Positions 11,739 through 63,739 of a DNA stretch of 64,000 bases are shown one piece after another. This DNA comes from Candidatus Aerophobetes bacterium Ae_b3b. GTDB lineage: Bacteria > Aerophobota > Aerophobia > Aerophobales > AE-B3A. Below the pieces are notes generated by a model. That model saw nothing but the letters and a program-made list of their open reading frames with translations, was not told the origin of the DNA and made no database searches. Made by a program: the position numbers and the translations under genes. The DNA lies in contig NJBP01000002.1 of assembly GCA_005223085.1 (NCBI GenBank), positions 10,902 through 74,901 on the forward strand. The letters are read 5' to 3'. Each line of letters starts with the position of its first letter. The first letter of the stretch is position 1.

Positions 11739-11759
11739 ACCATGCTTCTCCCTAGTTCG

Positions 11760-11992
11760 TTAATGTGCCCTTCGCAAAATTCGAAAATCAGCTACTGCTA
11801 CTTTATCTCCTATCTGCTTGCGATAGAGTATCCATCAGTCCAGAGTTTTCTGCTGCAGCATCTTCCGCTTAGATGTAGGAACTCATACAAAATCTCATTC
11901 CTCGATATACTCTTTATTATATTCACCAGCTTTGCTGGAGTGTGCCTTGGTGGAGCTGAAAGGAAAAGATGGACATGACCCCTCATATTGTA
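11760..11992 (-). pseudogene. IS200/IS605-type TnpA transposase remnant
   Basis: The minus-strand frame from 11992 reads NMRGHVHLFLSAPPRHTPAK, then VNIIKSISRNEI and KLWTDGYSIASR, ending in a stop at 11810. This matches the middle of Y1 (HUH) transposases: HVH is the His-hydrophobe-His motif, and SAPP, ISRNEI-like and LWTDGY-like segments are family landmarks. GDKVAVA continues in another frame, so a frameshift is present. The N-terminus and the catalytic Tyr region are missing. It begins only a few bases after the stop of the sulfatase-like gene. Confidence 0.75.
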
Positions 11993-11996
11993 AGAA

Positions 11997-47672: not shown

Positions 47673-49548
47673 TTTTCATCCCCAGATTGATTCTTCTACC
47701 CGGCATGGGGTAATCCCTGAACACCTGGTATGACTCATCCAGTAAATTCTCCCCCGTGGCAAAAACCTCAACTTTCTTGGTTAACCTTTGAGAAAGCCTG
47801 GCGTTAAGGAGATTATAGCCCTTTAATTTCTGGGTGTTTTCTCTATTGGTATATTGCTCACTTACCTTCTCTGTCTCTATGCGGATGCCTAATCCAAAAT
47901 CTGTTTCATATTCCAGACTCAAGCCCATTTTGTATTCAGGTGTATATGCCAGATAATTTCCTTTATACTCCTCACCCTCATCCTTAGCTTGTTGATAGAG
48001 ATAATTTAATCCGAGAGATAACCTCGAGGTCAACTGTAATCTGAGCTCCGATTCTATACCCTGGTTATGGGCCTTGTCTACATTGGTAGCCTGCCAGTGC
48101 CAGGGTGAAATCTCCACCCAGCTAATTAGCTGCTCAGTTTTTCTATCAAACCAACTTATTCTGGCTAGTAGAGGCAGGCTAAACTGATGCTCCAATCCCA
48201 ACTCATAGCCTCTAGATTTTTCTGGTTTAAGGTCTTCATTTCCAAATAGACCCATTCCCCATCCCCAATCCTCATACCAGTAAAGTTCATTTACCGTAGG
48301 GGGCCTGAAAGCCTGACCATAGGAAGCACGAAGGCGGGTATTGTGTCCTAAAAGGTAAAGGAGACTCACTCGAGGACTGCATTGGGAAGCGTAGGCGGAG
48401 GGATTGTCGTACCTCAGTCCCGGGAGGAGGACTAAGCGGGAAGAAGGATTTATCTCGTCCTGAAGATAAAGAGAAATCGTATCTAACTTCCGGGGGTCAC
48501 CAATTCTGGAAGCTCCATCAATGGTTGTGACTTTGACCCGATCCTGTCTTAGCTCCAAACCTATCGTGGGGAAATGTCTTCCCCAGGGGAGGCTATACTG
48601 CATTTGCACACCACTGGCAAGATTTTCTGTTGTATCTTTCATCGGACCGCCCCAGGCCTCAGGGTCTTGGTAACATATTTCATATTGTTCGATAAAAGTT
48701 TTAGTAAGAAGACGAGCTCCTCCTTTTAAATCCTTGTGGTAGGAAAGATCCAAGAAGTTCCTTTTGTCCTCTTCCCGGGCACCAGGAGTGGGATAAGTGG
48801 TGGAGCCGGGAACCCCGCTGTCTCGATGAGAGTAACCAGCCAATAAAGAGAACCCCGATGAATCATTGACTTCATAAGTGAGCTTGGCTGTCGCATGTGT
48901 CTCGTTACAGCCACTATTTTCTCTGTCTCCGGCTGAGTCTCCCAGCTTAGCGGTGAGAAAGTATCCAGTCTTGTCTAGCTTTCCACCATGGGTAAGAGTG
49001 TATCCACTGGTTTCATAGGTGCCATAGGAAGCTCTGATCTCGGTCTGCCTCTTTTCAGGAGCAGGTTTGGTAATGATATTGATAACGCCGCTCAGGGCGT
49101 TAGCTCCGTAGAGAGAGGAGAAGGGACCTCTAACTACCTCGATCCTTTCGATGTTTTGTACCGGAAGGAAACCCAGATCTATGGTTCCGGAAGCGGCAGG
49201 ATTTAATTCTCGTCCATCCATTAAAACTAAGACTTGATCTGCGGCAGAACCGCGAATATGTGCTGTAGTCAGTGAACCCGGACCCCCGTAAGCGGTCACT
49301 CTCATTCCCGCTACATTCTCTAATGCCTGAGCCACCGTGGAAGCACCGGTTTGTTCGATCTCTTTTTCAGTGATGACCGTGGTGCTCACCGGAACATCCT
49401 TTAATAAATGGGGAGTACGGGTAGCGGTAATAACTATTTTTTCTAGCTCTAGGATGCTTTCTTCTTTATTTTCCTCAGCCTCTGTCCAACCGGAAAAGAT
49501 AAGCACTAGACCCAAGGTTACCATAAGTAATCTGCTAAATGAAGACAT
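47662..49548 (-). CDS. btuB: TonB-dependent outer-membrane corrinoid receptor
   Basis: 628 residues. A signal peptide ends near GWTEAEE. The TonB box is KIVITATRTP. The plug has VPVSTTVITEKEIEQTGAST, VLVLMDGRELNP and RIEVVRGPFSSLYGANALSGVINIIT (cited as landmarks, in parts). The beta-barrel ends in RRINLGMKIGL, with Leu rather than the usual Phe at the C-terminus. A cobalamin riboswitch upstream makes corrinoid the likely cargo. It is the first gene of btuB-tonB-TPR. Confidence 0.93.
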   Translation of the reverse strand: MSSFSRLLMVTLGLVLIFSGWTEAEENKEESILELEKIVITATRTPHLLKDVPVSTTVITEKEIEQTGASTVAQALENVAGMRVTAYGGPGSLTTAHIRGSAADQVLVLMDGRELNPAASGTIDLGFLPVQNIERIEVVRGPFSSLYGANALSGVINIITKPAPEKRQTEIRASYGTYETSGYTLTHGGKLDKTGYFLTAKLGDSAGDRENSGCNETHATAKLTYEVNDSSGFSLLAGYSHRDSGVPGSTTYPTPGAREEDKRNFLDLSYHKDLKGGARLLTKTFIEQYEICYQDPEAWGGPMKDTTENLASGVQMQYSLPWGRHFPTIGLELRQDRVKVTTIDGASRIGDPRKLDTISLYLQDEINPSSRLVLLPGLRYDNPSAYASQCSPRVSLLYLLGHNTRLRASYGQAFRPPTVNELYWYEDWGWGMGLFGNEDLKPEKSRGYELGLEHQFSLPLLARISWFDRKTEQLISWVEISPWHWQATNVDKAHNQGIESELRLQLTSRLSLGLNYLYQQAKDEGEEYKGNYLAYTPEYKMGLSLEYETDFGLGIRIETEKVSEQYTNRENTQKLKGYNLLNARLSQRLTKKVEVFATGENLLDESYQVFRDYPMPGRRINLGMKIGL

Positions 49549-49652
49549 TGCCTTCTCCCTTCCTTTTATTCTCTGTATCTAACGGTGCTAACCTACATGC
49601 CTCATCCTTCTGAGGGTACTCCTCAGTTATTCAAAAAGCTACTTCCTATAAA

Positions 49653-49955
49653 AAACCCCAGCCTTCCCGATAAAGAAAGCTGGGGTTCTATTGTTCGACA
49701 AAAACCCTCATTACCTTTTATGCGAAGAAGGAGGGTACACACACATAGGCAGGTCTTCTGGCTCCCGGTGACCTCAATCTTGAGTTTTTCTACTCTCCGC
49801 GCCTTCCCATCTCACTGGCTCATCAAAATTACTACATCAAGAGACAGTGGCCTAGTGCGGATTTCGCTACCGGTTACAGCGGCGCAACCGCGAGGGTTTC
49901 TCACCCTCTTCCCTTTTAAGCCCACATAGGGCACCTATATACTTCAACCAGGACA
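49653..49955 (-). promoter_or_regulatory. Cobalamin riboswitch with terminator, upstream of btuB
   Basis: The minus strand carries the class I landmarks in order: AAGGGAAGAGGGTGAGAAACC, GCGCCGCTGTAACCGG, GCCACTG, GGGAAGGCGCGG and AGCCAGAAGACCTGCC. An expression-platform hairpin follows (ACCCCAGC/GCTGGGGT, about 49656-49688) with TTTTTATA after it, so ligand binding probably causes transcription termination. Confidence 0.92.
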
Positions 49956-50034: not shown

Positions 50035-51363
50035 CTATTTTTTTTCCTTTCCGTTAAAGATCCTTCTATAGCTTAGGTTTAAAATGAGGGCAGGAAGTGA
50101 ATATTTCCACCTTCTTCCTCCGGATAAACTGGTCAGTCTCTTAAAAATAGAAGAAAGACGATAGATTCTCTGATAGGCCCAGTCAAATCCTTGTTTTAGC
50201 TCCTGAGGAGTCATTGATTTTGGTTTAAAGACCGCATGGGCCAGGTCATAATTTGACCAATTTCTATCTATGATTCTATCTTCTTTTTCTAATTTTTCAT
50301 ATAATTTTGTCCCCGGCAAAGGGGTGAGAATGCTGAATTGAACGACATCTAACTTCACTCTCTCTATGAATTCTACTGTTTTTTTGAAGATACTCTTATC
50401 ATCATGATCAAAGCCAAAGATAAAGGCCCCTTCAATTGATATCCCAAACCGGTGGATTTTTTCAATAGCCTTCTCGTAGAATTTTATCTTATTTTGAGAT
50501 TTATCAGCTTCCGCCAGGGAGGCTTCAGAAATTGATTCAAAACCAATGAATAGTCCTTTGCATCCGCTGGCTGCTGCCAGTTGCAGAACGTCTTCGTGCC
50601 GGGCTATGTTGATAGAAGATTGCCCTATCCATAAAAGCTTATAGGGTACCAAAGCCTTAAACAGCTCCCGGGCATAGGCAATATTCCCGACAATGTTATC
50701 ATCGAGAAATCCCAGGAAGCGCGTTTTTAGGGGTTTACTTACCATACCTTTGATTTCTTCTATGACTTTTTTTACCGGACGAAAGCGATATTTCTTGCCG
50801 AAAAATTTAGAGACCGAACAGAAACTACAATCAAAGGGACAGCCCCTGGTCAATTGCAAGAAACGACTGAGAAGATAGCCTTTATCCTTAACGAGCTCTC
50901 TTCTGGGAATAGGTATCTTCACCGGATCCGGCCTCTGGGAATTTCGGTAGAACTTGGCCAGTGCTTGCTTTCCTCCCCTTTTAAAATCCTCAATTAGCCT
51001 CTCCCATAATCCTTCTGCCTCTCCTATTACTACTGCATCTGCATGTTTAGCTGTTTCCTCGGGCAAAACTGTCGCATGTATCCCCCCAAAGACCACCAGA
51101 ACCCCTCTTTCTCTAAATGTATCCGCTATTTCGTAAGCACGGGGACTGGAGGCGGTCATAGTAGTTATCCCTACCAGGTCAACCTTCTTATCAAAATCTA
51201 TCTCTTCAATATTCTCATCAATTATCTCCACTTTTACATCCTTAGGAGTTAAGGCAGATACAATAAGAAGATTATGGGGGGGAACTTTAAAGATTCTACC
51301 TCTGCCCATTCTCTTAATTTTTGTCTCTTTTTTCCAGGTAGGTGAAATCAACAGTATTTTCAT
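50035..51363 (-). CDS. B12-binding-domain radical SAM protein
   Basis: About 442 residues. I place the start at ATG 51363 (MKILLISPTWKKE) because GAGGAAAT precedes it; a longer frame begins at 51396. The N-terminal B12-binding-like Rossmann domain has VDLVGITTMTASSPRAYEIA and VVFGGIHATVLPEE. The radical SAM site is GCPFDCSFCSVSKFFG (CxxxCxxC). The C-terminus has the typical LTPLPGTKLYEKLE segment. Class B members methylate unactivated carbons or act in other cobalamin-assisted reactions. The substrate is unknown. Confidence 0.9.
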   Translation of the reverse strand: MKILLISPTWKKETKIKRMGRGRIFKVPPHNLLIVSALTPKDVKVEIIDENIEEIDFDKKVDLVGITTMTASSPRAYEIADTFRERGVLVVFGGIHATVLPEETAKHADAVVIGEAEGLWERLIEDFKRGGKQALAKFYRNSQRPDPVKIPIPRRELVKDKGYLLSRFLQLTRGCPFDCSFCSVSKFFGKKYRFRPVKKVIEEIKGMVSKPLKTRFLGFLDDNIVGNIAYARELFKALVPYKLLWIGQSSINIARHEDVLQLAAASGCKGLFIGFESISEASLAEADKSQNKIKFYEKAIEKIHRFGISIEGAFIFGFDHDDKSIFKKTVEFIERVKLDVVQFSILTPLPGTKLYEKLEKEDRIIDRNWSNYDLAHAVFKPKSMTPQELKQGFDWAYQRIYRLSSIFKRLTSLSGGRRWKYSLPALILNLSYRRIFNGKEKK

Positions 51364-51436
51364 ATTTCCTCTTCCTTTTTTTGAATGATTTTCCATTTTA
51401 TGCCTGTCTTTTCAAAGTATAGCTAGCTTCGTCATC

Positions 51437-52237
51437 TCACCTCAACCTCCCTTGGCGATAGGCAGAAATATAATCCATACAGTATTCATCCAATCCAAGA
51501 GCTGCTTGAGCTGAGAGTAGAATATTCATCATCCCGCGCTCACAGGGGTCAATAATTATCCCATCACATCCGGCTGCCATAAGCATAGCCAGAAAAACTT
51601 TATTTAAGTTATTCCGTAAGGGAAGCCCGAAGGAAATATTTGATAATCCAAGAGCAATGTGAGCTTCAGGGAATTCTCTTTTGGTAGCAATAATAGCATC
51701 TAAGATAAATCTTGCCTGTCCCGGATTGGTTGAGGCGGGACGGACAAGATGATCAAAATAAACTTTATCCAGAGGAATCCCTTCTTCTTCAATTATCTTT
51801 GCTAAGTTCCTGGTGATCTTCATCCTTCCCTCATAATCTTCAGGCATACCGTTATCATCCATGGTTAATGCAATTACACCTGTTCTATATTTCTTTACCA
51901 AAGGTAGGATATCTTCAATGCGCTTTTTTTCTCCGGTAATAGAATTTATTATAGTTCCCGGTCTATTGCACAGCTTCAGCCCTTCTTCCAGTGCTAGGGA
52001 GTTAGCTGAATCAAATACAAGGGGAAGCTTTGTTGCCTTAGATACTACCTCTGTTAACCATCTCATATCATCTACTTCCTTTGCTGGATCACCGCCGGCA
52101 TTAACATCTATATGAGTGGCACCTGCTTCAGTCTGTTTACGTGCTTCCAACATAATAAAATCAGCATCTCTTTCCCATACCTTTTCTTTAATTTTCTTTC
52201 GCGTCATATTAATGCGTTCTCCAATGATTGTGAACAT
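51437..52237 (-). CDS. Pterin-binding methyltetrahydrofolate:corrinoid methyltransferase
   Basis: 266 residues, TIM barrel of the pterin-binding family. FTIIGERINMTRK at the start, GATHIDVNAGGDPA, LPLVFDSANSLALEEGL and LGLSNISFGLP are shared with AcsE and MtgA-type enzymes. It moves a methyl group between tetrahydrofolate and a corrinoid protein. No corrinoid protein or CO dehydrogenase gene is in the window, so the pathway (Wood-Ljungdahl, methylamine/betaine use or methionine synthesis) is open. The ASKHA protein at 25481 is a functional fit. Confidence 0.9.
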   Translation of the reverse strand: MFTIIGERINMTRKKIKEKVWERDADFIMLEARKQTEAGATHIDVNAGGDPAKEVDDMRWLTEVVSKATKLPLVFDSANSLALEEGLKLCNRPGTIINSITGEKKRIEDILPLVKKYRTGVIALTMDDNGMPEDYEGRMKITRNLAKIIEEEGIPLDKVYFDHLVRPASTNPGQARFILDAIIATKREFPEAHIALGLSNISFGLPLRNNLNKVFLAMLMAAGCDGIIIDPCERGMMNILLSAQAALGLDEYCMDYISAYRQGRLR

Positions 52238-52299
52238 AGCTTTTTCTCCTCCTAGTTAGTTCCCAGTTCATAATTTACAAAATAATATTGTATTTAGCC

Positions 52300-52705
52300 T
52301 GTCATTGCGAGGGACAAGGTCCCGAAGCAATCTCAAGACAGACTCGGAACAGGCTCCGTAATCTCTTATAGTTCCCCATACAAATCCCGCCATTCCTTAT
52401 TCATACTATTGATTAACTCAATCTTCCTCTGCCTTGAGCCAGCTTTGATCTGTTTCTCTTTCAAAATGGCACTCTCTATATCCTCAAATACCTCATAATA
52501 CACAAGTTTAGTAATGTTATATTTTTTTGTGAATCCATCGACAAGTTTTTCTTTGTGCTCATAAACCCTTCTTTTTAAATTGTTGGTAACACCTGTATAA
52601 AGTACAGTGTTCCTTTGGTTGGTCATTATGTAAATATAGTACTGTTTATTCATTTATTTATAGATGCCATTGGATTGCTTCGTCGCTTCGCTCCTCGCAA
52701 TGACA
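52300..52705. mobile_element. Palindromic-repeat unit carrying GIY-YIG gene
   Basis: Perfect 13-bp terminal inverted repeats TGTCATTGCGAGG (52300-52312) and CCTCGCAATGACA (52693-52705), with inner GAAGCAATC (52324-52332) and GATTGCTTC (52673-52681), flank a single nuclease gene. The unit separates two methyltransferase genes that are otherwise co-directional. Whether it moves is unproven. Confidence 0.55.
52366..52653 (-). CDS. Single-domain GIY-YIG nuclease (YhbQ/UvrC-like)
   Basis: 95 residues. YYIYIMTNQRNTVLYTGVTN is the GIY-YIG core (YIY...YTG), with NNLKRRVYEHKEKL carrying the conserved Arg and His, and ILKEKQIKAGSRQRKIELI the Glu-containing helix. Small stand-alone members are widespread, and their substrates are poorly known. 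It lies inside a pair of inverted repeats. Confidence 0.9.
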   Translation of the reverse strand: MNKQYYIYIMTNQRNTVLYTGVTNNLKRRVYEHKEKLVDGFTKKYNITKLVYYEVFEDIESAILKEKQIKAGSRQRKIELINSMNKEWRDLYGEL

Positions 52706-52742
52706 GTAAATCACACAAGTTAATCCGGAGACGAATAATAGG

Positions 52743-53672
52743 TTAACCAGAAAATTTAATCACTGTTTCCAGATATTTTTTAGCTATATCAATGTAACTG
52801 GGGACTTCTTTAGCAATTAAACGAATATGCTCAGGGGTAGTTCCGCAACATCCTCCAATCATACTTATTCCTGCTTTTATCAAATCAGGAATCAACCTTG
52901 CCATCTCTTCTGGAGTTTCCCGATAAACAGTTTTTCCCTCTTCCAGTTGAGGAGATCCTGCATTTGGTTTTATCCACAAAGGCAGGGTAGTAGCAGAACG
53001 TATAATACAGGCTATTTCAACCATATTTTCTATTCCAGAGCCACAATTTGCTCCTACTATGTCTGCTCCAGTTTTTTCTAATTCGACCACTGCTTTTCTT
53101 GGAGTTACGCCCATCATTGTAGCGTATCCCCTTTCTCCTTTGTTAAAAGTCATTGATACCGCTACCGAAAGATTAGAATTCTCTCTAACAGCTTTTAGAG
53201 CACACTTGGCCTCATTAAGATCTGTCATTGTCTCAACGATTACACCATCGGCACCTCCTTCTACAAAAGCCTTAACTTGCTCTGAAAAACAAGAAATCAT
53301 CTCATCCTCTGCAGTCATGCCTAAAGGCTTCAGAAATTCACCAGTAGGGCCGATAGAGGCAAATACTAAGGAATCTTCCGCGATCTCCTTAGATAACTCC
53401 ACACCTTTCCTGTTTATCTCTCTTACTTTCGATGAAACACCGGCTTTTTTCAATTTAAAATAATTGCCGCCAAATGTATTGGTCAATATAATATCAGCTC
53501 CAGCTTCTCGATAAGCTCTGGCAATGGCCCGGATATCATCAGGGCGGTCTAGATTCCACAGCTCTGGACATTCGCCAGGCACAAGTCCTCGCTTTATCAT
53601 TTCTGTTCCCCAGGCTCCATCCAGAACTAGGATTCCCCTGGAAAACAGCCTTTTCTTCCAGTCTCTTGTCAT
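52743..53672 (-). CDS. Homocysteine S-methyltransferase (MetH N-domain/BHMT-like)
   Basis: 309 residues, equal to the homocysteine-binding domain alone. LVLDGAWGTEMIKRGL and TNTFGGNYFKL open it. Zinc-binding Cys residues lie in VGANCGSGIENM and IGGCCGTTPEH. Without B12 or folate modules of its own, it may work with the pterin methyltransferase downstream and a separate corrinoid protein as a split methionine synthase, or be a methylcobalamin-dependent demethylase component. Confidence 0.9.
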   Translation of the reverse strand: MTRDWKKRLFSRGILVLDGAWGTEMIKRGLVPGECPELWNLDRPDDIRAIARAYREAGADIILTNTFGGNYFKLKKAGVSSKVREINRKGVELSKEIAEDSLVFASIGPTGEFLKPLGMTAEDEMISCFSEQVKAFVEGGADGVIVETMTDLNEAKCALKAVRENSNLSVAVSMTFNKGERGYATMMGVTPRKAVVELEKTGADIVGANCGSGIENMVEIACIIRSATTLPLWIKPNAGSPQLEEGKTVYRETPEEMARLIPDLIKAGISMIGGCCGTTPEHIRLIAKEVPSYIDIAKKYLETVIKFSG

Positions 53673-54082: not shown

Positions 54083-54094
54083 GGAGACGATTTG

Positions 54095-54300
54095 AAAATT
54101 AGGTTACGTATGAGATGAGCAGATGAAGGGAATTGGGTGAAAATCCCAAGCAGTGGCGCTGCTGTAATGGGAAACGAAACCTCACAAACCACTGGAACGT
54201 GAAGTTCTGGGAAGGGAGGGAGTAGGCTGTCCCTAAGCCAGAAGACCTATCTGCTTTTCTAGCCATTCTTCCTTTGCGCATCACAAAGGAGGTGTTTTTT
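54095..54300 (+). promoter_or_regulatory. Cobalamin riboswitch upstream of cobU
   Basis: Landmarks in order: GAAGGGAATTGGGTGAAAATCC, AAGCAGTGGCGCTGCTGTAATG, ACCACTGG, GGGAAGGGAGGGAGTAGGC and AAGCCAGAAGACCTATCTGC. The 3' part pairs CCTTTG with CAAAGG next to the cobU ribosome site AAAGGAGG, so control is probably at translation initiation. A T7 run after the site leaves some room for termination. Confidence 0.9.
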
Positions 54301-54301
54301 T

Positions 54302-54865
54302 ATGAAAGTTGAATTAGGAGGAGAATCTCTCCACAAAATGGCTAAACTTATCTTTATTACTGGAGGGGCCAGGAGCGGGAAAAGCAGATTTGCCGTAAAA
54401 CTGGCTAAACAGTTGGCCAGTAAGGTGACCTTTGTAGCTACAGCTATGGCAAAGGACGAAGAAATGCGGGAGCGCATCCGACGGCATCAAAAGGATCGTC
54501 CTAGCCATTGGAGATTGGTGGAGGAAGGAAAAAACCTCTCTCTCGTTCTCTCCCAGCTTGATGCTTCCTGCGAGCTGGTGATAATAGACTGCTTGAGTTT
54601 TCTCATCTCCAACCTTCTTCTCGATAATACCGAGGAAGATACTATCATCAAACAGGTGAGGGAGATAGCTGACGAGGTAATTCATCTTCGGCCTACTTTC
54701 ATCGTGGTCTCTAATGAGGTAGGTTATGGAGTGGTACCTCCTACCAGATTAGGCCGGAGGTTCAGAGATATCTGTGGTCAAGCTAATCAAATAATGGCTG
54801 AGCAAGCCCAGGAAGTCTATTTTATGATATCAGGAATTCCCATGAGGATAAAGAGGAACCTATAA
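54302..54865 (+). CDS. cobU: Adenosylcobinamide kinase / cobinamide-phosphate guanylyltransferase
   Basis: 187 residues. The P-loop is ITGGARSGKSRFA. VVSNEVGYGVVPPTRLGRRF and FRDICGQANQIMAEQA are family signatures. It phosphorylates and guanylylates adenosylcobinamide for nucleotide-loop assembly. ATG 54302 has AAAGGAGG upstream and adds 12 residues before the usual start; Met13 has a poorer spacing. First gene of the operon. Confidence 0.95.
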   Translation: MKVELGGESLHKMAKLIFITGGARSGKSRFAVKLAKQLASKVTFVATAMAKDEEMRERIRRHQKDRPSHWRLVEEGKNLSLVLSQLDASCELVIIDCLSFLISNLLLDNTEEDTIIKQVREIADEVIHLRPTFIVVSNEVGYGVVPPTRLGRRFRDICGQANQIMAEQAQEVYFMISGIPMRIKRNL

Positions 54866-54888: not shown

Positions 54889-55950
54889 GTGAGAAAGATC
54901 ACCGAGACTATAGGGAAGATAAAACCGATTGACGCTAGAATTCTCAAAGAGGCTCAGCGTCGACTGGATAACCTCACTAAACCTGAGAGAAGTCTGGGGA
55001 GATTGGAGGAATTAGCCAAAAAGGTGGTAGCCATCACCGGCAGAGAAAACCCCACCCTGGATAGAAAAGTTATCTTTACCATGGTGGGAGATCATGGGGT
55101 AGCCAGGCAAGGAGTGAGTGCTTTTCCTCAAGGAGTTACGGTTCAGATGGTTCATAACTTTCTTCAGGGAGGAGCAGCCATAAATGTTCTAGCCAGGGGA
55201 GTGGGAGCAAAAGTTCTAGTTGTAGATATGGGAGTAGCTCACAAGATAAAGTCCAGCAAGAATCTGATTAACAAAAAGGTGGCCTCTGGAACACAGGATA
55301 TGATGAAGGGTTCAGCTATGAGCCGGAAACAGGCTCTTGAGTCCATCAGAGGGGGAATAGAGATTTTTGAGGAGGAATGGGCTATGAGTGGCGTTGATAT
55401 AGCCGGTACCGGAGATATGGGGATCGCTAATACCACCTCTAGCAGTGCCATTGTAGCCTGCATAACCGGGTGTAAAGTTCAAGATGTTACTGGTAGAGGA
55501 ACGGGGATAGATGATGAGAGGCTTAGGAGAAAGATGGAAGTCATCGAGAAGGCTCTTAAAATCAATCAGCCCGACCCTCACGATCCCATTGATATTTTGA
55601 GTAAGGTGGGAGGATTTGAGATAGGGGGATTGGTTGGTTGTATTCTAGCGGCTGCTGCCCACAGGGTCCCTATAGTCATAGATGGCTTCATCTCTACCGC
55701 CAGTGCTCTCATAGCCTGTGAGCTTTGTCCTTTTCTAAAGGATTATCTCATTGCCGCGCATAGATCCCAGGAGAAAGGACACCAAATTGCCCTTAATCAT
55801 CTGGGTAAGACTCCCCTGCTGGACTTGAATATGCGACTGGGTGAGGGCACAGGGGCAGCTCTGGGTATGAAACTGGTGGAGCTGGGAGTCAAAGTTCTCA
55901 ATGAGATGGCTACCTTTGAAGAAGCCCGCGTATCCCGGGAAGGAAATTAA
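54889..55950 (+). CDS. cobT: Nicotinate-nucleotide-dimethylbenzimidazole phosphoribosyltransferase
   Basis: 353 residues, GTG start with AAAGGAG upstream. GDHGVARQGVSAFPQGVT, MVHNFLQGGAAINVLA and LGEGTGAALGMKLVELG (near the catalytic Glu) are typical. It activates the lower-ligand base as its alpha-riboside phosphate. Its stop lies one base before the cobS start. Confidence 0.96.
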   Translation: MRKITETIGKIKPIDARILKEAQRRLDNLTKPERSLGRLEELAKKVVAITGRENPTLDRKVIFTMVGDHGVARQGVSAFPQGVTVQMVHNFLQGGAAINVLARGVGAKVLVVDMGVAHKIKSSKNLINKKVASGTQDMMKGSAMSRKQALESIRGGIEIFEEEWAMSGVDIAGTGDMGIANTTSSSAIVACITGCKVQDVTGRGTGIDDERLRRKMEVIEKALKINQPDPHDPIDILSKVGGFEIGGLVGCILAAAAHRVPIVIDGFISTASALIACELCPFLKDYLIAAHRSQEKGHQIALNHLGKTPLLDLNMRLGEGTGAALGMKLVELGVKVLNEMATFEEARVSREGN

Positions 55951-55951
55951 A

Positions 55952-56707
55952 TTGAAAAGCCTTCTAACCGCCTTTCGTTTCCTAACTATTCTTCCTCTCA
56001 GAGTAAAAATAGAGGAGAGTGATGAGCTTTTGGCCTCCTCTATGGCTTTTTTCCCCCTGGTGGGACTCTTTATTGGGGGCTTTCTCTTTCTAGTCTATCG
56101 AATTAGCTCCATCCTCTTCTCTCCTCTTCTGATCAATGCGCTGGTGCTTATAGCCTGGGTTTTTATCACCGGGGCCCTGCACCTGGATGGGTTCATGGAC
56201 ACCATTGATGGACTGTCCGGGGGTAAAACTAAAGAGGAAAGACTGAAAATAATGAAGGACCCCTCCAGTGGCGCTAAAGGTACAGTTGGTCTGGTGGGCC
56301 TTCTGGGGCTGAAATTCCTCTTGCTTCTAGAAATAGAGCCTTTCCTCAAGACGGGGACTCTTCTTCTAACACCGGTGGTTGGCAGGTGGTCTATGGTTAC
56401 GGCAGCTTATCTGGCCCCTTATGCCCGCGGGGAAGGGCTGGGGAAAGCCTTTATCACCCGTAAGGGGGAAGGAACCATTTTTTGGGCAAGTCTAACTGTA
56501 ACTCTTCTGGGTCTGATTATATTCAAATTTCCTTTCCTCTATATTATAGGAGTATGTTTGGGGATAACCTATCTCTCCACGCTCTATTTTAAGAGTCGAA
56601 TGGGAGGAATTACCGGCGATACCCTGGGAGCCCTCAATGAAATTATTGAACTTACTGCTCTTTTTTCCATCTACAGTTTAAGCAAAGCTGGAGTCTTTTT
56701 GAGCTGA
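55952..56707 (+). CDS. cobS: Adenosylcobinamide-GDP ribazoletransferase (cobalamin synthase)
   Basis: 251 residues, inner-membrane enzyme that joins the two halves of the cofactor. I use TTG 55952 (LKSLLTAFRFLTILPL) because AAGGA lies upstream and the alternative in-frame ATG is inside cobT. LHLDGFMDTIDGLSGGKTKE and MKDPSSGAKGTVGLV are the catalytic Asp-rich landmarks. At least five membrane spans. Confidence 0.94.
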   Translation: MKSLLTAFRFLTILPLRVKIEESDELLASSMAFFPLVGLFIGGFLFLVYRISSILFSPLLINALVLIAWVFITGALHLDGFMDTIDGLSGGKTKEERLKIMKDPSSGAKGTVGLVGLLGLKFLLLLEIEPFLKTGTLLLTPVVGRWSMVTAAYLAPYARGEGLGKAFITRKGEGTIFWASLTVTLLGLIIFKFPFLYIIGVCLGITYLSTLYFKSRMGGITGDTLGALNEIIELTALFSIYSLSKAGVFLS

Positions 56708-56753: not shown

Positions 56754-57677
56754 ATGGAAGTCTTAATCGATGAAATAAGAAAAAGACTTACCCGTGCCGT
56801 GGATGAGAGTGGCGCCGAGGGGCTTCTACTTTCCGGTGGTCTGGATTCAAGCATCCTCGCCGCACTTGCTCCCGGGGTTAGTGCATTTACAGTTACTCTG
56901 GCACCGTATGGAGAAGATGGAGAGTATGCTAAGATAGTTACTCAAATCCTCCCTATTAAATCCTATCACAGGATGATTGGTATTGAGGAAGCAGTCGATT
57001 CGATACCCGCCGTAATCGGTATTTTGAAAAGCTTTGATCCTGCTATCCCCAATGATATAGCTACTTACTTTGGACTGAAACTGGCCAAAGATAAAGGAGC
57101 AAAAAACGTGATGACCGGCGATGGGGCTGATGAGCTCTTTGCCGGCTATAGTTTCATGTTTGATTTACCCAATCTAGAAAGTTATATCCGAAGACTTAAG
57201 AACAAGATCTATTTTTCCTCCAATATTCTGGGTCAGAAGTTGGGAGTAGAAATAAAGCAGCCTTATCTCTCCCATGAGATAATCGAGCTGGCTCTAGAGA
57301 CACCGAAGGACCTTAAAATAAAGGTTGAGGGGGAAAAGAAATGGGGCAAATGGATTCTTCGCAAGGCTTTTGAAGATGTCCTGCCACCAAAAATTATATG
57401 GCAGGACAAAAGACCTCTGGAATATGGCTCAGGGACAAGAAGGCTTCGCAGGATTATCTCGGAGAAGATTTCCGATGAAGAGTTTGAAGAAAAAAGAGGG
57501 CTTTATCCGGTGAGATTTATGAGTAAAGAGCATCTTTTCTATTACCAGGTATATCGAAAAGTGGTAGGAGAGATTCCAGCTCCTGAAAAGGGCGACGCAG
57601 CTTGTGCTGGATGTGGAGCAGGAATAGAAAAAAAGGCAAACCACTGCCGCATTTGTGGGGCCATTCAGAATGAGTAG
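56754..57677 (+). CDS. Asparagine-synthase-like PP-loop protein with C-terminal zinc ribbon
   Basis: 307 residues. The PP-loop LLLSGGLDSSILAAL and TGDGADELFAGYSFMF match the synthetase half of asparagine synthase. The N-terminal glutaminase domain is absent. The C-terminus adds CAGCGAGIEKKANHCRICG, a zinc ribbon. The location between cobS and cbiB suggests an amide-bond-forming or -remodelling step in corrinoid salvage, not asparagine synthesis. Its exact reaction is unknown. The next gene overlaps it by eight bases. Confidence 0.85.
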   Translation: MEVLIDEIRKRLTRAVDESGAEGLLLSGGLDSSILAALAPGVSAFTVTLAPYGEDGEYAKIVTQILPIKSYHRMIGIEEAVDSIPAVIGILKSFDPAIPNDIATYFGLKLAKDKGAKNVMTGDGADELFAGYSFMFDLPNLESYIRRLKNKIYFSSNILGQKLGVEIKQPYLSHEIIELALETPKDLKIKVEGEKKWGKWILRKAFEDVLPPKIIWQDKRPLEYGSGTRRLRRIISEKISDEEFEEKRGLYPVRFMSKEHLFYYQVYRKVVGEIPAPEKGDAACAGCGAGIEKKANHCRICGAIQNE

Positions 57678-58356
57678 TGTATTTGTTTCCTGGAGTGGAG
57701 GAAAGGAAAGCTCTCTTGCCTGCTATAGGGCGAAGGCTAACGGACTCACCCCTTCATATCTTCTCAATATGACCGTTGAGGATGGTTCAAGATCAAGAAC
57801 CCACGGGCTAGCTCGAGAAGTTCTATCACTTCAAGCAGGGGCGATAGGCATCTCTCTTATTCAGAGAAAGACAAGCTGGAAGAATTATGAAGATAATTTC
57901 AAAAAGACAGTGCTGGAGCTAAAGGAGGCGGGGATAGAGGGAGGGGTCTTCGGAGATATAGATTTGGAGGAACATCGGAGATGGGTGAAGAGGGTTTGTA
58001 AAGAAATAGGCATTCGACCATATCTACCGCTCTGGGGAAAATGCCAAAAGAAAGTTATCGAGGATTTTATAAATTTAGGATTCCAGGCAGTTGTAGTGGC
58101 GATAATCTCAGACACTTTAGATGAGACGTGGCTTGGTCGCAAAATTGATCGCAAGTTCCTTAAAGACATAACTCGTATCGAGAACATTACCCCCTGTGGT
58201 GAAGCCGGCGAGTATCACACCTTGGTCACCGATGGTCCCATATTCAAAAAGAGGATGAGAATAGTTGAGACCAAAACTCATCAAAGAGGAGAGCAGCGGT
58301 TTCTGGATATTTCAAGATGTATTCTGGAAGATAAAGATTACCTAGGTCAGTTATGA
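57670..58356 (+). CDS. DUF71/COG2102 ATP pyrophosphatase (diphthine ammonia ligase-like), B12-associated
   Basis: 228 residues from ATG 57670, overlapping the previous stop. PP-loop VSWSGGKESSLACYRA and the family signature GEAGEYHTLVTDGP. Eukaryotic and archaeal relatives amidate diphthine. Bacteria lack diphthamide, and comparative genomics has tied a bacterial subgroup of this family to B12 salvage. Context here (cobS, cbiB neighbours) agrees. It and the preceding PP-loop protein may act together. Confidence 0.88.
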   Translation: MSSVFVSWSGGKESSLACYRAKANGLTPSYLLNMTVEDGSRSRTHGLAREVLSLQAGAIGISLIQRKTSWKNYEDNFKKTVLELKEAGIEGGVFGDIDLEEHRRWVKRVCKEIGIRPYLPLWGKCQKKVIEDFINLGFQAVVVAIISDTLDETWLGRKIDRKFLKDITRIENITPCGEAGEYHTLVTDGPIFKKRMRIVETKTHQRGEQRFLDISRCILEDKDYLGQL

Positions 58357-59303
58357 AGTTATTAAGTATTATCTTAGCCTATTTGTTAGATTTGATTTTT
58401 GGTGACCCAAGATGGCTGCCCCATCCGGTCAGGGGTATGGGGAAGCTCACCGAGTATCTAGAGAAGAAGTTAAGAGGCTCCATTTCATGTCAGATCTTAT
58501 CCGGAGCAGTTTTAGCCATAACAGTAGTGGGACTAGCCTATCTGGGTAGCTTTTTTGCTATTCGGCTCGCCGGGCAAATTAATAGATGGACAGGATTTGC
58601 CATCAGCACCGTCCTCATCTTCACTACTCTTTCTAGTAGAAGTTTGAGCAAAGAAGCAAGATCTGTTTACCAGTCATTAAAATCAGGAAGCATCAAAGAT
58701 GCCCGAAAAAAACTCTCTCTCATAGTGGGAAGAGACACCCAAGTATTAAATCAGGATGAGATTATCAGGGCTACAGTAGAAACAGTTGCTGAAAATAGCG
58801 TTGATGGTATTATTTCACCTCTATTCTATGCTGCTCTCGGTGGAGCTCCGCTTGCCATAGCTTATAAGGCTATTAACACCCTGGACTCTATGATTGGTTA
58901 TAAAAATGAGAGATACCTTTATTTTGGCTGGTTTTCGGCAAAGCTAGATGATATAGCCAACTATATTCCCGCTCGTCTCAGCATCCTACTCGTTCCTTTA
59001 GCTAGTCTTATCTTGAGGAAGCGACCATTGAACACTCTCTGCACCATCCTGCGAGATGGGAAAAAATCTCCCAGTCCTAACGCTGGTATACCAGAAGCTG
59101 CTTTTGCCGGCGCCTTAGGAATCCAACTGGGCGGGGTAAATTACTATCAAGGGAAAAAAGTTTCCCAGCCTATATTAGGGGTCGAGGCAAAGCAAAGAGG
59201 GGAAGAGCATATTATTGAGGCAATTCATCTAATGTGGGTCATCTCAAGCATCACTTTTTTAGGGGAAATACTCATTCTATGGTATCTTTCGGGCTTATTT
59301 TAG
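58353..59303 (+). CDS. cbiB: Adenosylcobinamide-phosphate synthase
   Basis: 316 residues, membrane protein. FGDPRWLPHPVRGMGKL is the N-terminal signature, with VAENSVDGIISPLFYAALGG and INTLDSMIGYKNERY. It attaches aminopropanol (or its phosphate) to adenosylcobyrate, so the cell can start from cobyric acid. It overlaps the DUF71 gene by four bases. The threonine-phosphate decarboxylase it needs is encoded at 62663. Confidence 0.95.
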   Translation: MKLLSIILAYLLDLIFGDPRWLPHPVRGMGKLTEYLEKKLRGSISCQILSGAVLAITVVGLAYLGSFFAIRLAGQINRWTGFAISTVLIFTTLSSRSLSKEARSVYQSLKSGSIKDARKKLSLIVGRDTQVLNQDEIIRATVETVAENSVDGIISPLFYAALGGAPLAIAYKAINTLDSMIGYKNERYLYFGWFSAKLDDIANYIPARLSILLVPLASLILRKRPLNTLCTILRDGKKSPSPNAGIPEAAFAGALGIQLGGVNYYQGKKVSQPILGVEAKQRGEEHIIEAIHLMWVISSITFLGEILILWYLSGLF

Positions 59304-59351
59304 AAAAATCTATTTTTGCGATGGTATAAAACACGAAGGGAAGAGGAGGTT

Positions 59352-60287
59352 ATGAAAAATAAAAGATCAAGGTTGTCCTCATTGATACTAATGGGTATTC
59401 TGATGTTGAGCGGTCTCGGTGGACTGAGTGAAATCTCGTTGGCTAGGGAATTCCCCTTGGCCGTTACCGACGATTTGGGAAGGAATGTGACTGTAAGCAG
59501 TGAACCGCAGAGCATAATATCGCTTGCTCCTTCAAATACAGAAATACTTTTTGCCTTGAGACTAGGAGATAGGCTCATGGCAGTTTCAGGATATTGCAAT
59601 TATCCATTAGAAGCTCAAAATAAAATAAAAATCGGGGGTTTTTCCACGGTTAACATCGAAAAAGTTGTCAGCTTGAAACCAGATTTGGTTCTTGCCACTG
59701 GTGGTGTACAGGAAGCTGTTGTTGAAGAATTGGAAAGACTTGGCCTGACGGTGATAGCCTTGAATGCCAAGAGCATCGAGGAGGTATTTGAAAACATAAG
59801 ATTGGTGGGGAAGGCTACCGCACAACTGGAAACTGCTAGAGAGTTGACGACTAAGCTAGAACAAAGGACTAAGGCTGTGACTGACAAGGCCAAGGATCTA
59901 CCTGACAGTCAAAGACCAAGAGTATTTTACGAGATTCAATATGAACCTTTGATGACAGCAGGTCCAGGAACATTTATTGATAACTTAATTCATCTGGCTG
60001 GAGGAGTTAATATTGCCTCGGATGCTGCAGCTAAATATCCTGTATATAACTTAGAGATGCTAATCGAGCGCAATCCGGAGGTGATTATTATTTCTTTCTG
60101 GCACGGTAGCATCGCAGCATCAGTAGAAGCAGTAAAAAGTCGAAAAAGATGGCAAATCATAGATGCAGTTAAGAATAATCGGGTGTATGGGATTAATGCA
60201 GACCTCGTCTCTCGTCCTGGACCCCGAATAGTAGATGGAATAGAAGAGATGGCCAGGTTCATACATCCAGATCTTTTTAAAGAATGA
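59352..60287 (+). CDS. btuF: Corrinoid-binding periplasmic protein of BtuFCD importer
   Basis: About 311 residues from ATG 59352, next to AGGAGG. A signal peptide ends near GLSEISLARE. The helical-backbone receptor fold shows DLGRNVTVSSEPQSIISLAP, TEILFALRLGDRLMAVSGYC and GAGGVNIASDAAAKYP-like sequence (LAGGVNIASDAAAKYP). Family members bind B12 or iron siderophores; the cob/cbi operon favours B12. Confidence 0.92.
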   Translation: MKNKRSRLSSLILMGILMLSGLGGLSEISLAREFPLAVTDDLGRNVTVSSEPQSIISLAPSNTEILFALRLGDRLMAVSGYCNYPLEAQNKIKIGGFSTVNIEKVVSLKPDLVLATGGVQEAVVEELERLGLTVIALNAKSIEEVFENIRLVGKATAQLETARELTTKLEQRTKAVTDKAKDLPDSQRPRVFYEIQYEPLMTAGPGTFIDNLIHLAGGVNIASDAAAKYPVYNLEMLIERNPEVIIISFWHGSIAASVEAVKSRKRWQIIDAVKNNRVYGINADLVSRPGPRIVDGIEEMARFIHPDLFKE

Positions 60288-60305: not shown

Positions 60306-61355
60306 TTGTATAAAAATTACCTCAAAAAATTCTTCCATTGGAAGTTAATTATAGCTTACCTTACAGCAATCTTAGGACTAACTGTTGTCTTAACCACAAC
60401 TGTGGGTGCTGCACATATACCTCCACTTGTTGTTTTAAAAATATTGTTCACCAAATTACCTTTAATAAACCATCTAATTATTCCTTCCTGGTCAATTGGT
60501 GAAGTCACCATAATCTTGGAGATTCGACTGCCGAGGATTATCCTGGGAGTCCTGGTGGGAGCAGCTCTTGCTGTTGCAGGAACAACTATGCAGGGACTGT
60601 TCAAAAATCCCATGGCAGATCCCTATATAATGGGAATCTCATCTGGCGCTGCTCTAGGTGCGATCCTTACCATAGTTTTTGGACTGAACATATTTGGCAT
60701 GTACACCATACCTTTAATGGCTTTCATATGTGCTGCCGCTGCTATTTTCTTAGTTTATAACATTGCTTCTGTTAGAGGAAAGCTGCCTGTCAGTACCCTG
60801 CTACTTGCTGGAATAGCCATGACTCTTTTCTTATCAGCCATTATCTCTTTTTTGATGTATACAGCCGGTGAAAAGCTACACGGAATTGTATTTTGGTTGA
60901 TGGGAGGACTTTGGGGACGCAACTGGAATCATGTTATGATGGCATTTCCTTTCATATTTTTAGGTACAATTCTCATTCATATCTTTGCCAGGGATTTGAA
61001 TGTAATGCTTATTGGTGAGGAACCGGCCCAGCATCTGGGAATAGAGGTAGAAACCCTGAAGAAAATCATAATACTTTCAGTTTCTTTGATTACCGCCGCT
61101 GCTGTATCAGTGAGTGGAATAATCGGATTTGTGGGTCTCGTAATACCCCATATTATGAGGATTTTGGTAGGCCCTGATCATCGAGTCCTTTTGCCAAGCT
61201 CTGCCTTAGTAGGGGGAATTTTCCTGGTTTGGGCTGACACCCTGGCAAGAACAATCATTGCTCCTACAGAAATACCGGTAGGCATAATCACAGCACTTTT
61301 TGGTGCTCCCTTCTTTATATACCTTCTACGAACAAGAAAGAGGTCGATGTTTTAA
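60306..61355 (+). CDS. btuC: BtuC-type permease
   Basis: Up to 349 residues with about ten membrane spans. EIRLPRIILGVLVGAALAVA, TTMQGLFKNPMADPYIMGIS and GFVGLVIPHIMRILVGPDHR are hallmarks of the FecCD/BtuC family. The start is probably TTG 60306; GAGG is very close to it, so the exact start is uncertain. It lies between btuF and btuD. Confidence 0.93.
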   Translation: MYKNYLKKFFHWKLIIAYLTAILGLTVVLTTTVGAAHIPPLVVLKILFTKLPLINHLIIPSWSIGEVTIILEIRLPRIILGVLVGAALAVAGTTMQGLFKNPMADPYIMGISSGAALGAILTIVFGLNIFGMYTIPLMAFICAAAAIFLVYNIASVRGKLPVSTLLLAGIAMTLFLSAIISFLMYTAGEKLHGIVFWLMGGLWGRNWNHVMMAFPFIFLGTILIHIFARDLNVMLIGEEPAQHLGIEVETLKKIIILSVSLITAAAVSVSGIIGFVGLVIPHIMRILVGPDHRVLLPSSALVGGIFLVWADTLARTIIAPTEIPVGIITALFGAPFFIYLLRTRKRSMF

Positions 61356-61361
61356 GAGGTT

Positions 61362-62627
61362 ATGATAATGCAGTCAGTCACCCTCCGAATTAACAATATT
61401 GCCTGTCGCTATGACGCCGCAAATGTTTTAGAGAATATTGATTTTTCAGCTAAGGGAGGTGATTTTATAGGAGTTGTAGGACCAAATGCCTCTGGCAAAT
61501 CAACTTTGCTTAAGAGTATCAGTAAGGTATTAAAGCCGCATACGGGGGTGGTCCTTCTGAATGAAAGGGATGTCCACACTTTAAAGAGTGCTGAGATAGC
61601 CAAAAATTTAGCGGTGGTCCCTCAGGAATCTGTGATTAGTTTTGCCTTTACAGCATTGGAAGTCGTTCTTATGGGAAGGACTCCTCATCTTAATAGATTT
61701 GAAATGGAAAGCACGCAAGATCTCATCATTGCCCAAAAATCGATGGAGCTAACTAATACCTGGTACCTTGCCGAAAGACCTATTGATACGTTAAGTGGGG
61801 GCGAAAAACAAAGGATTATTATTGCCAGGGCTCTTACTCAGGAGCCTAGAGTTCTTTTGCTTGATGAGCCAACAGATCATCTGGACATAAACCACCAGAT
61901 AGAGATATTGGACCTCATTAAGAGATTGAGTAAAGAAAAGGAAATGGTGGTCATAGGTGTTTTCCATGATCTCAATATTGTCTCACAGTATTGCGACAGA
62001 TTGATCCTGCTTCACAAAGGGAGGATATTTGCCGCCGGTGGAGCAGGAGATGTTCTTACTGGAGAAAACATAGAAAAGGTATATGGAGTAAAAGTTACTG
62101 TTAAACAGGATGATATTTCAGGTAAATTGCTTATTCATCCTCAAAGAAAAAGGATGATTAAAGAAGCTAAGGCCAAAGTCCATGTAATAGCAGGTTCTGG
62201 TAGTGCAGTCTCATTAATGAACGAGTTGGTGGATAATGGTTATAATGTTAGTCTGGGTGTAATAAATATAGGAGACTCTGATTATGTTGCTGCAAAGGCT
62301 TTAGAACTAGACATTGTTGAAGAAAAGCCTTTTTGCCCTATAGGCGAGAAAAATTATGAGAAAAATCTTGAATTAATTAAGCAAGCAGATTATGTGATAT
62401 TAACAAATATACCCATCGGGTTTGCCAACATAAAGAATCTAAAGGCAGCCGGAGAGGCTCAAAATTTGATCATTGTAGAAAAAGAACCAATTGAGAAAAG
62501 AGATTATACTGAAGGAGAAGCAACCAAGCTTTACCATGAGTTAAAAGCCAATGCTACTCTGGTGAAAAATTCGCATGGTGTCCTGGACACGTTAAAGTCA
62601 ATGGAAAGTGGGGTTAATTATGAGTAA
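61362..62627 (+). CDS. btuD: BtuD-type ATPase with C-terminal extension domain
   Basis: 421 residues. The ABC ATPase occupies about 1-255: Walker A VVGPNASGKSTLL, signature LSGGEKQRIIIARAL, Walker B VLLLDEPTDHLD. The remaining 165 residues form a separate Rossmann-like domain (VHVIAGSGSAVSLMNELV, LGVINIGDSDYVAAKAL, ADYVILTNIPIGFANIKNL). A similar extension occurs in some archaeal BtuD proteins; its role is not known to me. It may sense a nucleotide or corrinoid intermediate. Confidence 0.92.
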   Translation: MIMQSVTLRINNIACRYDAANVLENIDFSAKGGDFIGVVGPNASGKSTLLKSISKVLKPHTGVVLLNERDVHTLKSAEIAKNLAVVPQESVISFAFTALEVVLMGRTPHLNRFEMESTQDLIIAQKSMELTNTWYLAERPIDTLSGGEKQRIIIARALTQEPRVLLLDEPTDHLDINHQIEILDLIKRLSKEKEMVVIGVFHDLNIVSQYCDRLILLHKGRIFAAGGAGDVLTGENIEKVYGVKVTVKQDDISGKLLIHPQRKRMIKEAKAKVHVIAGSGSAVSLMNELVDNGYNVSLGVINIGDSDYVAAKALELDIVEEKPFCPIGEKNYEKNLELIKQADYVILTNIPIGFANIKNLKAAGEAQNLIIVEKEPIEKRDYTEGEATKLYHELKANATLVKNSHGVLDTLKSMESGVNYE

Positions 62628-62662: not shown

Positions 62663-63739
62663 ATGAAAAGCAGTAGCTATTTCCATGGGGGTAATCACAG
62701 GGAAGTAGCAAGAAGATATGGCCTCTCACCAAATGAGATTCTCGATTTTAGTGCCAACATAAATCCCTGGGCAAACTCCCTGGAGATAGAAAAGATAGTG
62801 AGAGCCAATTTAAAGGAGATTTACCATTATCCTGATCCTCAATGTGCAGAGTTAATCAAACAGATTAGCCAGTATTTAGGTGTTGATAGAGAAAATATTC
62901 TGGCTGGCAATGGGTCAACGGAACTTATATATCTGGCAGCTCGTGCTCTCCTGCCCCGAAGAGCTCTCATCTTTGCCCCCACTTTCTTCGAATATGAGCG
63001 GGCCTTAAAAGCATGCGGAGGAGAGCCAAAATTCTTATTCCTTAAAGAAAGCCAGGGGTTTTCTGTCAACATCCAAAAAATCATCGAGGCGATAAAAGAT
63101 GTTGAGGCTGTTTTTATCTGCAACCCTAATAACCCTACCGGTACTTTTTTTCCCGAAGAGGAGCTGCTTGAGCTGGTAAAGATAACTGAAGAAAGGAAGA
63201 TAACCCTTATTTTAGATGAAAGCTATCTTGATTTTAAACATTCCGGGGAAAGTCTGGTAAAAGAAGCACAGAATAGCAATCACCTTCTTGTCTTAAGATC
63301 GTTCACTAAATTTTTTGCCCTGGCCGGTTTGAGACTTGGCTGTGGGGTTGGAGGCAGGCATTTAATTGAAAAATTGGTTGGTTTAAAAGAACCCTGGACA
63401 GTCAACTGTTTAGCCCAGGCTGTCGGTGCCTATCTTTTGAGGGCTCAGCAGAAAATAAAAGAAATACGAGAAGCTGTAAATAAAGAAACAGAATTTTTAT
63501 TTGGCCAGCTTTCGCGAATTGGAGGCCTGAAGCCCTATTCTCCAGAGGCTAACTTCATTCTGGTCAGGATAGAAACAGACCTTTCTTCAACAAAGCTCCA
63601 GGAGGATTTGGCCAAAAAGGGTATTCTTATCCGGGATTGTAGCAATTTTGCTGGCCTTAATGATAAATTTTTTAGGATTGCAGTTAGAAAAAGAGAAGAA
63701 AACTTGAGATTAATTGACAGTCTTAAAGAAGCGATCTGA
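62663..63739 (+). CDS. cobD: L-threonine-O-3-phosphate decarboxylase
   Basis: 358 residues, PLP fold type I related to histidinol-phosphate aminotransferase. FHGGNHREVARRYGLSPNEI and DFSANINPWANS are typical of CobD. The Schiff-base Lys is in RSFTKFFALAGLRLG. It makes aminopropanol phosphate for CbiB. HisC is the alternative, but the operon and N-terminus favour CobD. Last gene of the operon. Confidence 0.93.
   Translation: MKSSSYFHGGNHREVARRYGLSPNEILDFSANINPWANSLEIEKIVRANLKEIYHYPDPQCAELIKQISQYLGVDRENILAGNGSTELIYLAARALLPRRALIFAPTFFEYERALKACGGEPKFLFLKESQGFSVNIQKIIEAIKDVEAVFICNPNNPTGTFFPEEELLELVKITEERKITLILDESYLDFKHSGESLVKEAQNSNHLLVLRSFTKFFALAGLRLGCGVGGRHLIEKLVGLKEPWTVNCLAQAVGAYLLRAQQKIKEIREAVNKETEFLFGQLSRIGGLKPYSPEANFILVRIETDLSSTKLQEDLAKKGILIRDCSNFAGLNDKFFRIAVRKREENLRLIDSLKEAI

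Follow-up and report, generated by a model that had tools for sequence, protein, structure and literature searches.

The first of two overlapping PP-loop genes in a corrinoid-salvage operon of a Candidatus Aerophobetes genome, here named AsnL, seems on balance to encode a non-orthologous replacement for CbiP/CobQ in such operons, with the asparagine-synthetase fold and an ATP-driven amide-forming activity. This reading is based on which genes are present and where they lie in the operon, on the absence of any locus read with both AsnL and CbiP, on an intact PP-loop and on the position of the catalytic lysine. The recurrence of AsnL across phyla in B12-salvage operons and its alternation with CbiP are new here; literature searches on AsnL-like proteins in B12 salvage or on non-orthologous CbiP returned nothing relevant beyond one study of the DUF71 family (PMC3541065). 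The other half of the finding, the DUF71 protein encoded by the second gene, belongs to a family whose part in B12 salvage was already predicted, though not proven.

The operon lies in a stretch of 64,000 nucleotides, hereafter the window, and is headed by a cobalamin riboswitch followed by genes for CobU, CobT, CobS, AsnL, DUF71, CbiB, BtuF, BtuC, BtuD and CobD (Table 1). An earlier note on this DNA described two overlapping PP-loop genes between cobS and cbiB of a B12-salvage operon, and profile matches bear this out. The overlap is real but only 8 nt long: the note had begun DUF71 at a GTG at 57655, a start that was rejected because the homologues begin at the ATG at 57670 (ATGAGTAG), and the nearest relatives have the same overlap. 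On the minus strand, a second cobalamin riboswitch (49731-49953) precedes a TonB-dependent receptor that is probably BtuB (region 47662-49953), with a TonB-like protein downstream of it. The same strand carries, next to the salvage operon (50035-53672), genes for B12-binding-type radical SAM, MtrH/methyltetrahydrofolate methyltransferase-like and homocysteine methyltransferase-like proteins, which by their sequences are likely corrinoid users.

Table 1. Position of each feature of the salvage operon within the window and the evidence for its assignment.
Feature	Position	Strand	Evidence
Cobalamin riboswitch RF00174, operon head	54084..54268	+	Rfam 89.5 bits, gathering 31.5
CobU, cobinamide kinase / guanylyltransferase	54302..54865	+	NF004469 over cut-off
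CobT, DMB phosphoribosyltransferase	54889..55950	+	TIGR03160 over cut-off
CobS, cobamide synthase	55901..56707	+	TIGR00317 115.6 bits, cut-off 110
AsnL, stand-alone asparagine-synthetase (PP-loop) domain with C-terminal Cys4 ribbon; proposed CbiP replacement	56754..57677	+	PF00733; AlphaFold2 model; nearest folds
AsnL PP-loop SGGLDS	56832..56849	+	nearly invariant, 28 relatives
AsnL ribbon CxxC...HCxxC	57603..57656	+	in 34/39 AsnL ORFs
DUF71/PF01902 protein, B12 subgroup	57670..58356	+	PF01902 E 1.2e-54; nearest solved 3RJZ/3RK1, 2D13
DUF71 motif GEAGEYH, His at place of Dph6 catalytic Glu188	58198..58218	+	motif defined in PMC3541065
CbiB, adenosylcobinamide-phosphate synthase	58353..59303	+	TIGR00380 over cut-off
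BtuF-like corrinoid-binding protein	59316..60287	+	PF01497
BtuC-like permease	60306..61355	+	PF01032
BtuD-like ATPase	61362..62627	+	PF00005; best NCBIfam PRK09536 corrinoid ABC ATPase
CobD, threonine-phosphate decarboxylase; source of CbiB's aminopropanol-phosphate	62663..63739	+	TIGR01140 343.8 bits, cut-off 290.55

De novo corrin synthesis was rejected for this genome (88.6% complete, 86 contigs), in which the only match to PF00590 (TP_methylase) was RsmI. The earlier note had named cbiP/cobQ together with cbiA as genes whose presence would speak against its proposal; profile searches of the genome found neither CbiA nor CbiP, with PF07685 retrieving only a PurQ-like protein. A search with PF01955 gave no match to CbiZ. 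CbiP amidates four side chains to yield cobyric acid, to which CbiB then adds aminopropanol (PMC7242693). The genome has CbiB and CobD, which need cobyric acid, and therefore some supplier of cobyric acid must exist.

AsnL is a protein of 307 amino acids with PF00733 (Asn_synthase) as its sole domain match (E 1.6e-41, 143.6 bits, cut-off 21). The ORF starts at the synthetase domain, and a profile search detected no glutaminase domain, so AsnL probably uses free ammonia. Scores against the asparagine synthase B equivalogs fall well below their cut-offs (PRK09431, 141.6 versus 499 bits; TIGR01536, 115.3 versus 267.1), and the CbiP/CobQ families TIGR00313 and PF07685 gave no match. The GDGxDE motif and K219, which occupies the position of AsnB K449, are conserved, and the C-terminal ribbon is missing only from five truncated, broken or frame-fused sequences. 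The AsnB TIRAS segment surrounds Arg325, which stabilizes the adenylation transition state; in AsnL it is replaced by a conserved FDPAIPND, which fits another substrate. The AlphaFold2 model (pLDDT 94.1) is closest to the solved structures of ASNS, AsnB and beta-lactam synthetase (Z 24-28). These features suggest that AsnL is a functional adenylating ligase whose substrate site has changed.

AsnL genes were surveyed with the patterns LKSFDPAI and PNDIA, by which divergent members may be missed. The first scan found 27 loci, spread over Aerophobetes, Omnitrophota, Deltaproteobacteria, Elusimicrobia, Nitrospirota, Auribacterota and others, the close relatives of the window protein being from Aerophobetes metagenome-assembled genomes (MAGs). 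Altogether, 39 AsnL loci from many phyla were examined, and nearly all lie in B12-salvage operons beside DUF71. DUF71 is the next gene in 26 of them and is parted from AsnL only by the radical SAM gene cbpB in six more, a repetition that is not due to chance; in most loci the two genes overlap or abut. In the remaining seven, DUF71 is not downstream: four reach a contig edge, L086 has CbpB but lacks DUF71, and L030 and L033 continue straight to BtuF. In the genomes of the first scan, which like the others counted here are mostly incomplete MAGs, DUF71 was found in 24/27 and CbiZ in two (L015 and L024), each time within the AsnL operon. Three of the 27 have a strong PF07685 match, one long GATase_3 protein each. 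Two of these proteins were read, and both belong to the CbiA/CobB type; no CbiP was seen in this search. One of these CbiA/CobB-type proteins adjoins what seems to be a gene for a dissimilatory sulfite reductase subunit and may thus be a sirohydrochlorin amidase. A cobalamin riboswitch is present at the window operon and at nine of the ten AsnL loci scanned with Rfam; none was found at L022, the contig of which begins just before the operon. One locus encodes a tandem BtuF-BtuF double-domain corrinoid-binding protein (L023:11574-13265).

In several operons, though not in the window, genes for a precursor peptide, CbpA, and a radical SAM/SPASM protein, CbpB (TIGR04164/TIGR04163), lie between AsnL and DUF71. 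CbpA has the core RKKCKA-GTGLSHY and directly follows AsnL in L028 (on a closed Omnitrophota chromosome, with CbpA and CbpB at 11054-12521), L014, L019, L032, L086, L088, L090 and L091. In L086 (7851-9041) the AsnL frame runs without a stop into CbpA, an apparent AsnL-CbpA fusion, and no DUF71 was detected in that genome. CbpB is found in 33 of 384 Omnitrophota genomes, CbiP operons included. Two more small radical SAM activase-like genes lie between DUF71 and BtuF in L014 (5632-6369), L032 (5153-6061) and their relatives. A literature search on CbpB/TIGR04163 found nothing relevant.

Co-occurrence was counted mainly in one phylum, the Omnitrophota (384 genomes); the 17 Aerophobota genomes in the collection were too few for statistics. 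AsnL is present in 17 Omnitrophota genomes and DUF71 in 126, with both in 15 (Fisher p 2e-6); AsnL is thus absent from 111 of the DUF71-bearing genomes. Two AsnL genomes have no detectable DUF71 although their contigs continue beyond AsnL (L033 in genome G037; L086 in genome G181). Neighborhoods were read for the AsnL loci and for 60 DUF71 loci without AsnL. Among 100 loci, 39 have AsnL, 18 have CbiP and none has both; for the 76 from Omnitrophota the counts are 16, 18 and zero, with neither amidase in 42. The CbiP assignments are secure (598-641 bits, cut-off 273). CbiB and CobD accompany 13/16 AsnL and 12/18 CbiP Omnitrophota loci but 0/42 of those without an amidase, although with phylogeny respected the comparison of amidase and CbiB comes down to only two independent pairs; three AsnL and six CbiP loci have no CbiB/CobD nearby. 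Nine of the 42 loci without an amidase have no further salvage gene of those scored and may represent other DUF71 functions; some have BtuB or CobO.

Three types of operon can be distinguished, all with cobalamin riboswitches: CobC-U-T-S-CbiB-CobD-AsnL-DUF71-BtuFCD-CobO-BtuB; CobC-U-T-S-CobD-CbiP-CbiB-DUF71-BtuFCD-CobO-BtuB, or CbiP-DUF71 without CbiB; and BtuFCD-CobC-U-T-S-DUF71-BtuB, lacking an amidase as well as CbiB and CobD. L095 and L173 share an unusual order, CobS-CobC-CobU-CobT-CobD-CbiB-X-DUF71-BtuFCD-CobO, in which X is AsnL in L095 and CbiP in L173. In the DUF71 tree, CbiP-linked sequences are nested twice, with strong support, in the AsnL-linked clade (L173 with L094/L095; L174/L176 with L093), and a single clade of CbiP-linked DUF71 was rejected (AU p 0.0064). 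Flanking genes in the swap pairs are of the same kinds, are 41-73% identical and largely keep their order, gene for gene in L095/L173. CbiP thus occupies the AsnL slot of matching operons, the pattern expected when an unrelated enzyme of equivalent function takes over the position of another, although CbiP may instead have its ordinary role in the Omnitrophota loci.

The window DUF71 protein matches PF01902 (Diphthami_syn_2), and its GEAGEYH is an ENGE(F/Y)H-type motif, kept in relatives as GE.GE(Y/F)H. Identity with the diphthine-ammonia ligase Dph6 was rejected: the TIGR03679 score is 134.7 against 197.3 bits, and the EGG(E/D)xE motif differs. The protein fits the context of the DUF71-B12 subgroup, since CbiB is the next gene, followed by BtuFCD; that subgroup adjoins btuCDF and cbiB, and in 2012 it was predicted to act in the salvage of pseudo-B12 in the manner of CbiZ or in a related one, on the basis of an anti-correlation with CbiZ reported as strict in bacteria (PMC3541065). 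In one AsnL operon CbiZ directly follows DUF71 (L015), and in another a BtuF-CbiZ fusion lies directly upstream of AsnL-DUF71 (L024:1665-3713). Coexistence with CbiZ, together with DUF71 operons that have no CbiB nearby, argues against a simple CbiZ substitute, although cbiB may lie elsewhere in genomes of the type without an amidase. We propose that DUF71 acts in the same salvage segment as AsnL without depending on it.

The position of AsnL in the slot of CbiP, its company with CbiB and CobD and its amide-ligase fold are most simply explained if AsnL does the job of CbiP. Corrinoids would be imported via BtuB/BtuFCD; AsnL would adenylate their free side-chain carboxylates, converting ATP to AMP and PPi, and amidate them with ammonia to give (adenosyl)cobyric acid or an equivalent. 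CbiB would then attach aminopropanol-phosphate supplied by CobD, and CobU, CobT and CobS would complete the cofactor. We infer this reaction, its ammonia source and the free carboxylates on imported corrinoids; candidate substrates include cobyrinic acid a,c-diamide and corrinoids that have lost some of their amides. We know of no member of the fold that takes a substrate of corrinoid size, and AsnL would need one far larger than aspartate. A more tentative and rather doubtful extension is that AsnL restores the b, d, e and g amides and DUF71 the a and c amides (or another), so that the two PP-loop proteins would do the amidation otherwise shared by CbiA and CbiP and would let corrin auxotrophs salvage corrinoids at the cobyrinic acid level or deamidated ones. 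Among the salvagers of cobinamide and of tetrapyrrole precursors in PMC6461909, salvage at this level is not described. The earlier note had assigned amide formation in corrinoid salvage to both proteins; for AsnL the context supports this well (the in-place swap with CbiP and no CbiP seen in AsnL genomes), and for DUF71 it is undecided. Degraded corrinoids, the substrate that the note named, are conjectural.

It is also conceivable, but unlikely, that the pair extends the 2012 prediction for DUF71-B12 and performs CbiZ-like remodeling, in which imported cobamides would be stripped of the nucleotide loop or aminopropanol arm and CbiB would rebuild the resulting cobyric acid. The predicted role for DUF71 (PMC3541065), the lack of CbiZ in the window genome and in 25/27 AsnL genomes and the usual presence of CbiB and CobD are consistent with this. 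Weighing against it, AsnL swaps with CbiP and not with CbiZ, CbiZ shares an operon with both proteins in L015 and L024, and the 42 Omnitrophota loci without an amidase have DUF71 without CbiB or CobD nearby. PP-loop enzymes, moreover, normally form amides rather than hydrolyze them. The earlier note's own model, an obligate two-subunit enzyme that re-amidates corrinoid side chains, is favored by the overlapping or abutting genes, the co-occurrence in 15 of the 17 AsnL Omnitrophota genomes and the AsnB-DUF71 fusions of three archaea (PMC3541065). We regard it as improbable because most DUF71 genomes have no AsnL; in addition, DUF71 pairs with CbiP too, and the AsnL operons of G037 and G181 have no DUF71, with none found elsewhere in either genome.

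Lasso-peptide cyclases share the asparagine-synthetase fold, and this, with CbpA directly after AsnL in eight loci and the continuous L086 frame, could suggest that AsnL serves the CbpA/CbpB system by joining or amidating a radical-SAM-modified peptide; however, most AsnL loci, including the window, have no CbpA/CbpB, and CbpB also occurs without AsnL in CbiP-bearing B12 operons, making this role very unlikely. An ordinary ammonia-dependent asparagine synthetase that lies in the operon by chance would suit the nearest solved structures of AsnL, which are asparagine synthetases, but is just as hard to credit given a B12-operon location that persists over many phyla, the conserved FDPAIPND and the low asparagine synthase B score.

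If AsnL does replace CbiP, cobyric acid synthases come in two unrelated forms, and corrinoids with free carboxylates are within reach of genomes now classed as plain cobinamide salvagers. The question about DUF71-B12, standing since 2012, would then concern a protein that partners an amide-forming enzyme, is found together with CbiZ and can lack a nearby CbiB.

Compared with CbiP/CobQ (TIGR00313, EC 6.3.5.10), AsnL shares the operon slot by CbiB, CobD and DUF71 and is predicted to make the same product for CbiB, but the folds are unrelated: CbiP combines a BioD-like ATPase with a class-I glutaminase, whereas AsnL has a PP-loop synthetase domain and no glutaminase. With AsnB/ASNS (PF00733) it has in common the fold, PP-loop, GDGxDE motif and catalytic lysine position; it differs in the missing N-terminal glutaminase, the extra C-terminal Cys4 ribbon, the altered aspartate/PPi segment and the B12 operon setting. 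As proposed for AsnL, CbiZ (adenosylcobinamide amidohydrolase, PF01955) provides cobyric acid to salvagers that have CbiB, but it is not homologous and is absent from the window genome. The window DUF71 resembles the DUF71-B12 subgroup in its motif and its CbiB and BtuFCD neighbors; the published description of the subgroup (PMC3541065) has no AsnL or CbiP neighbor, and DUF71 stands beside CbiZ in two of our loci, contrary to the reported strict bacterial anti-correlation. Beta-lactam and carbapenam synthetases (Z 23-27) are, as proposed for AsnL, AsnB-fold ligases recruited to new substrates; unlike AsnL, they form an intramolecular amide, retain the N-terminal domain and have no link to B12.
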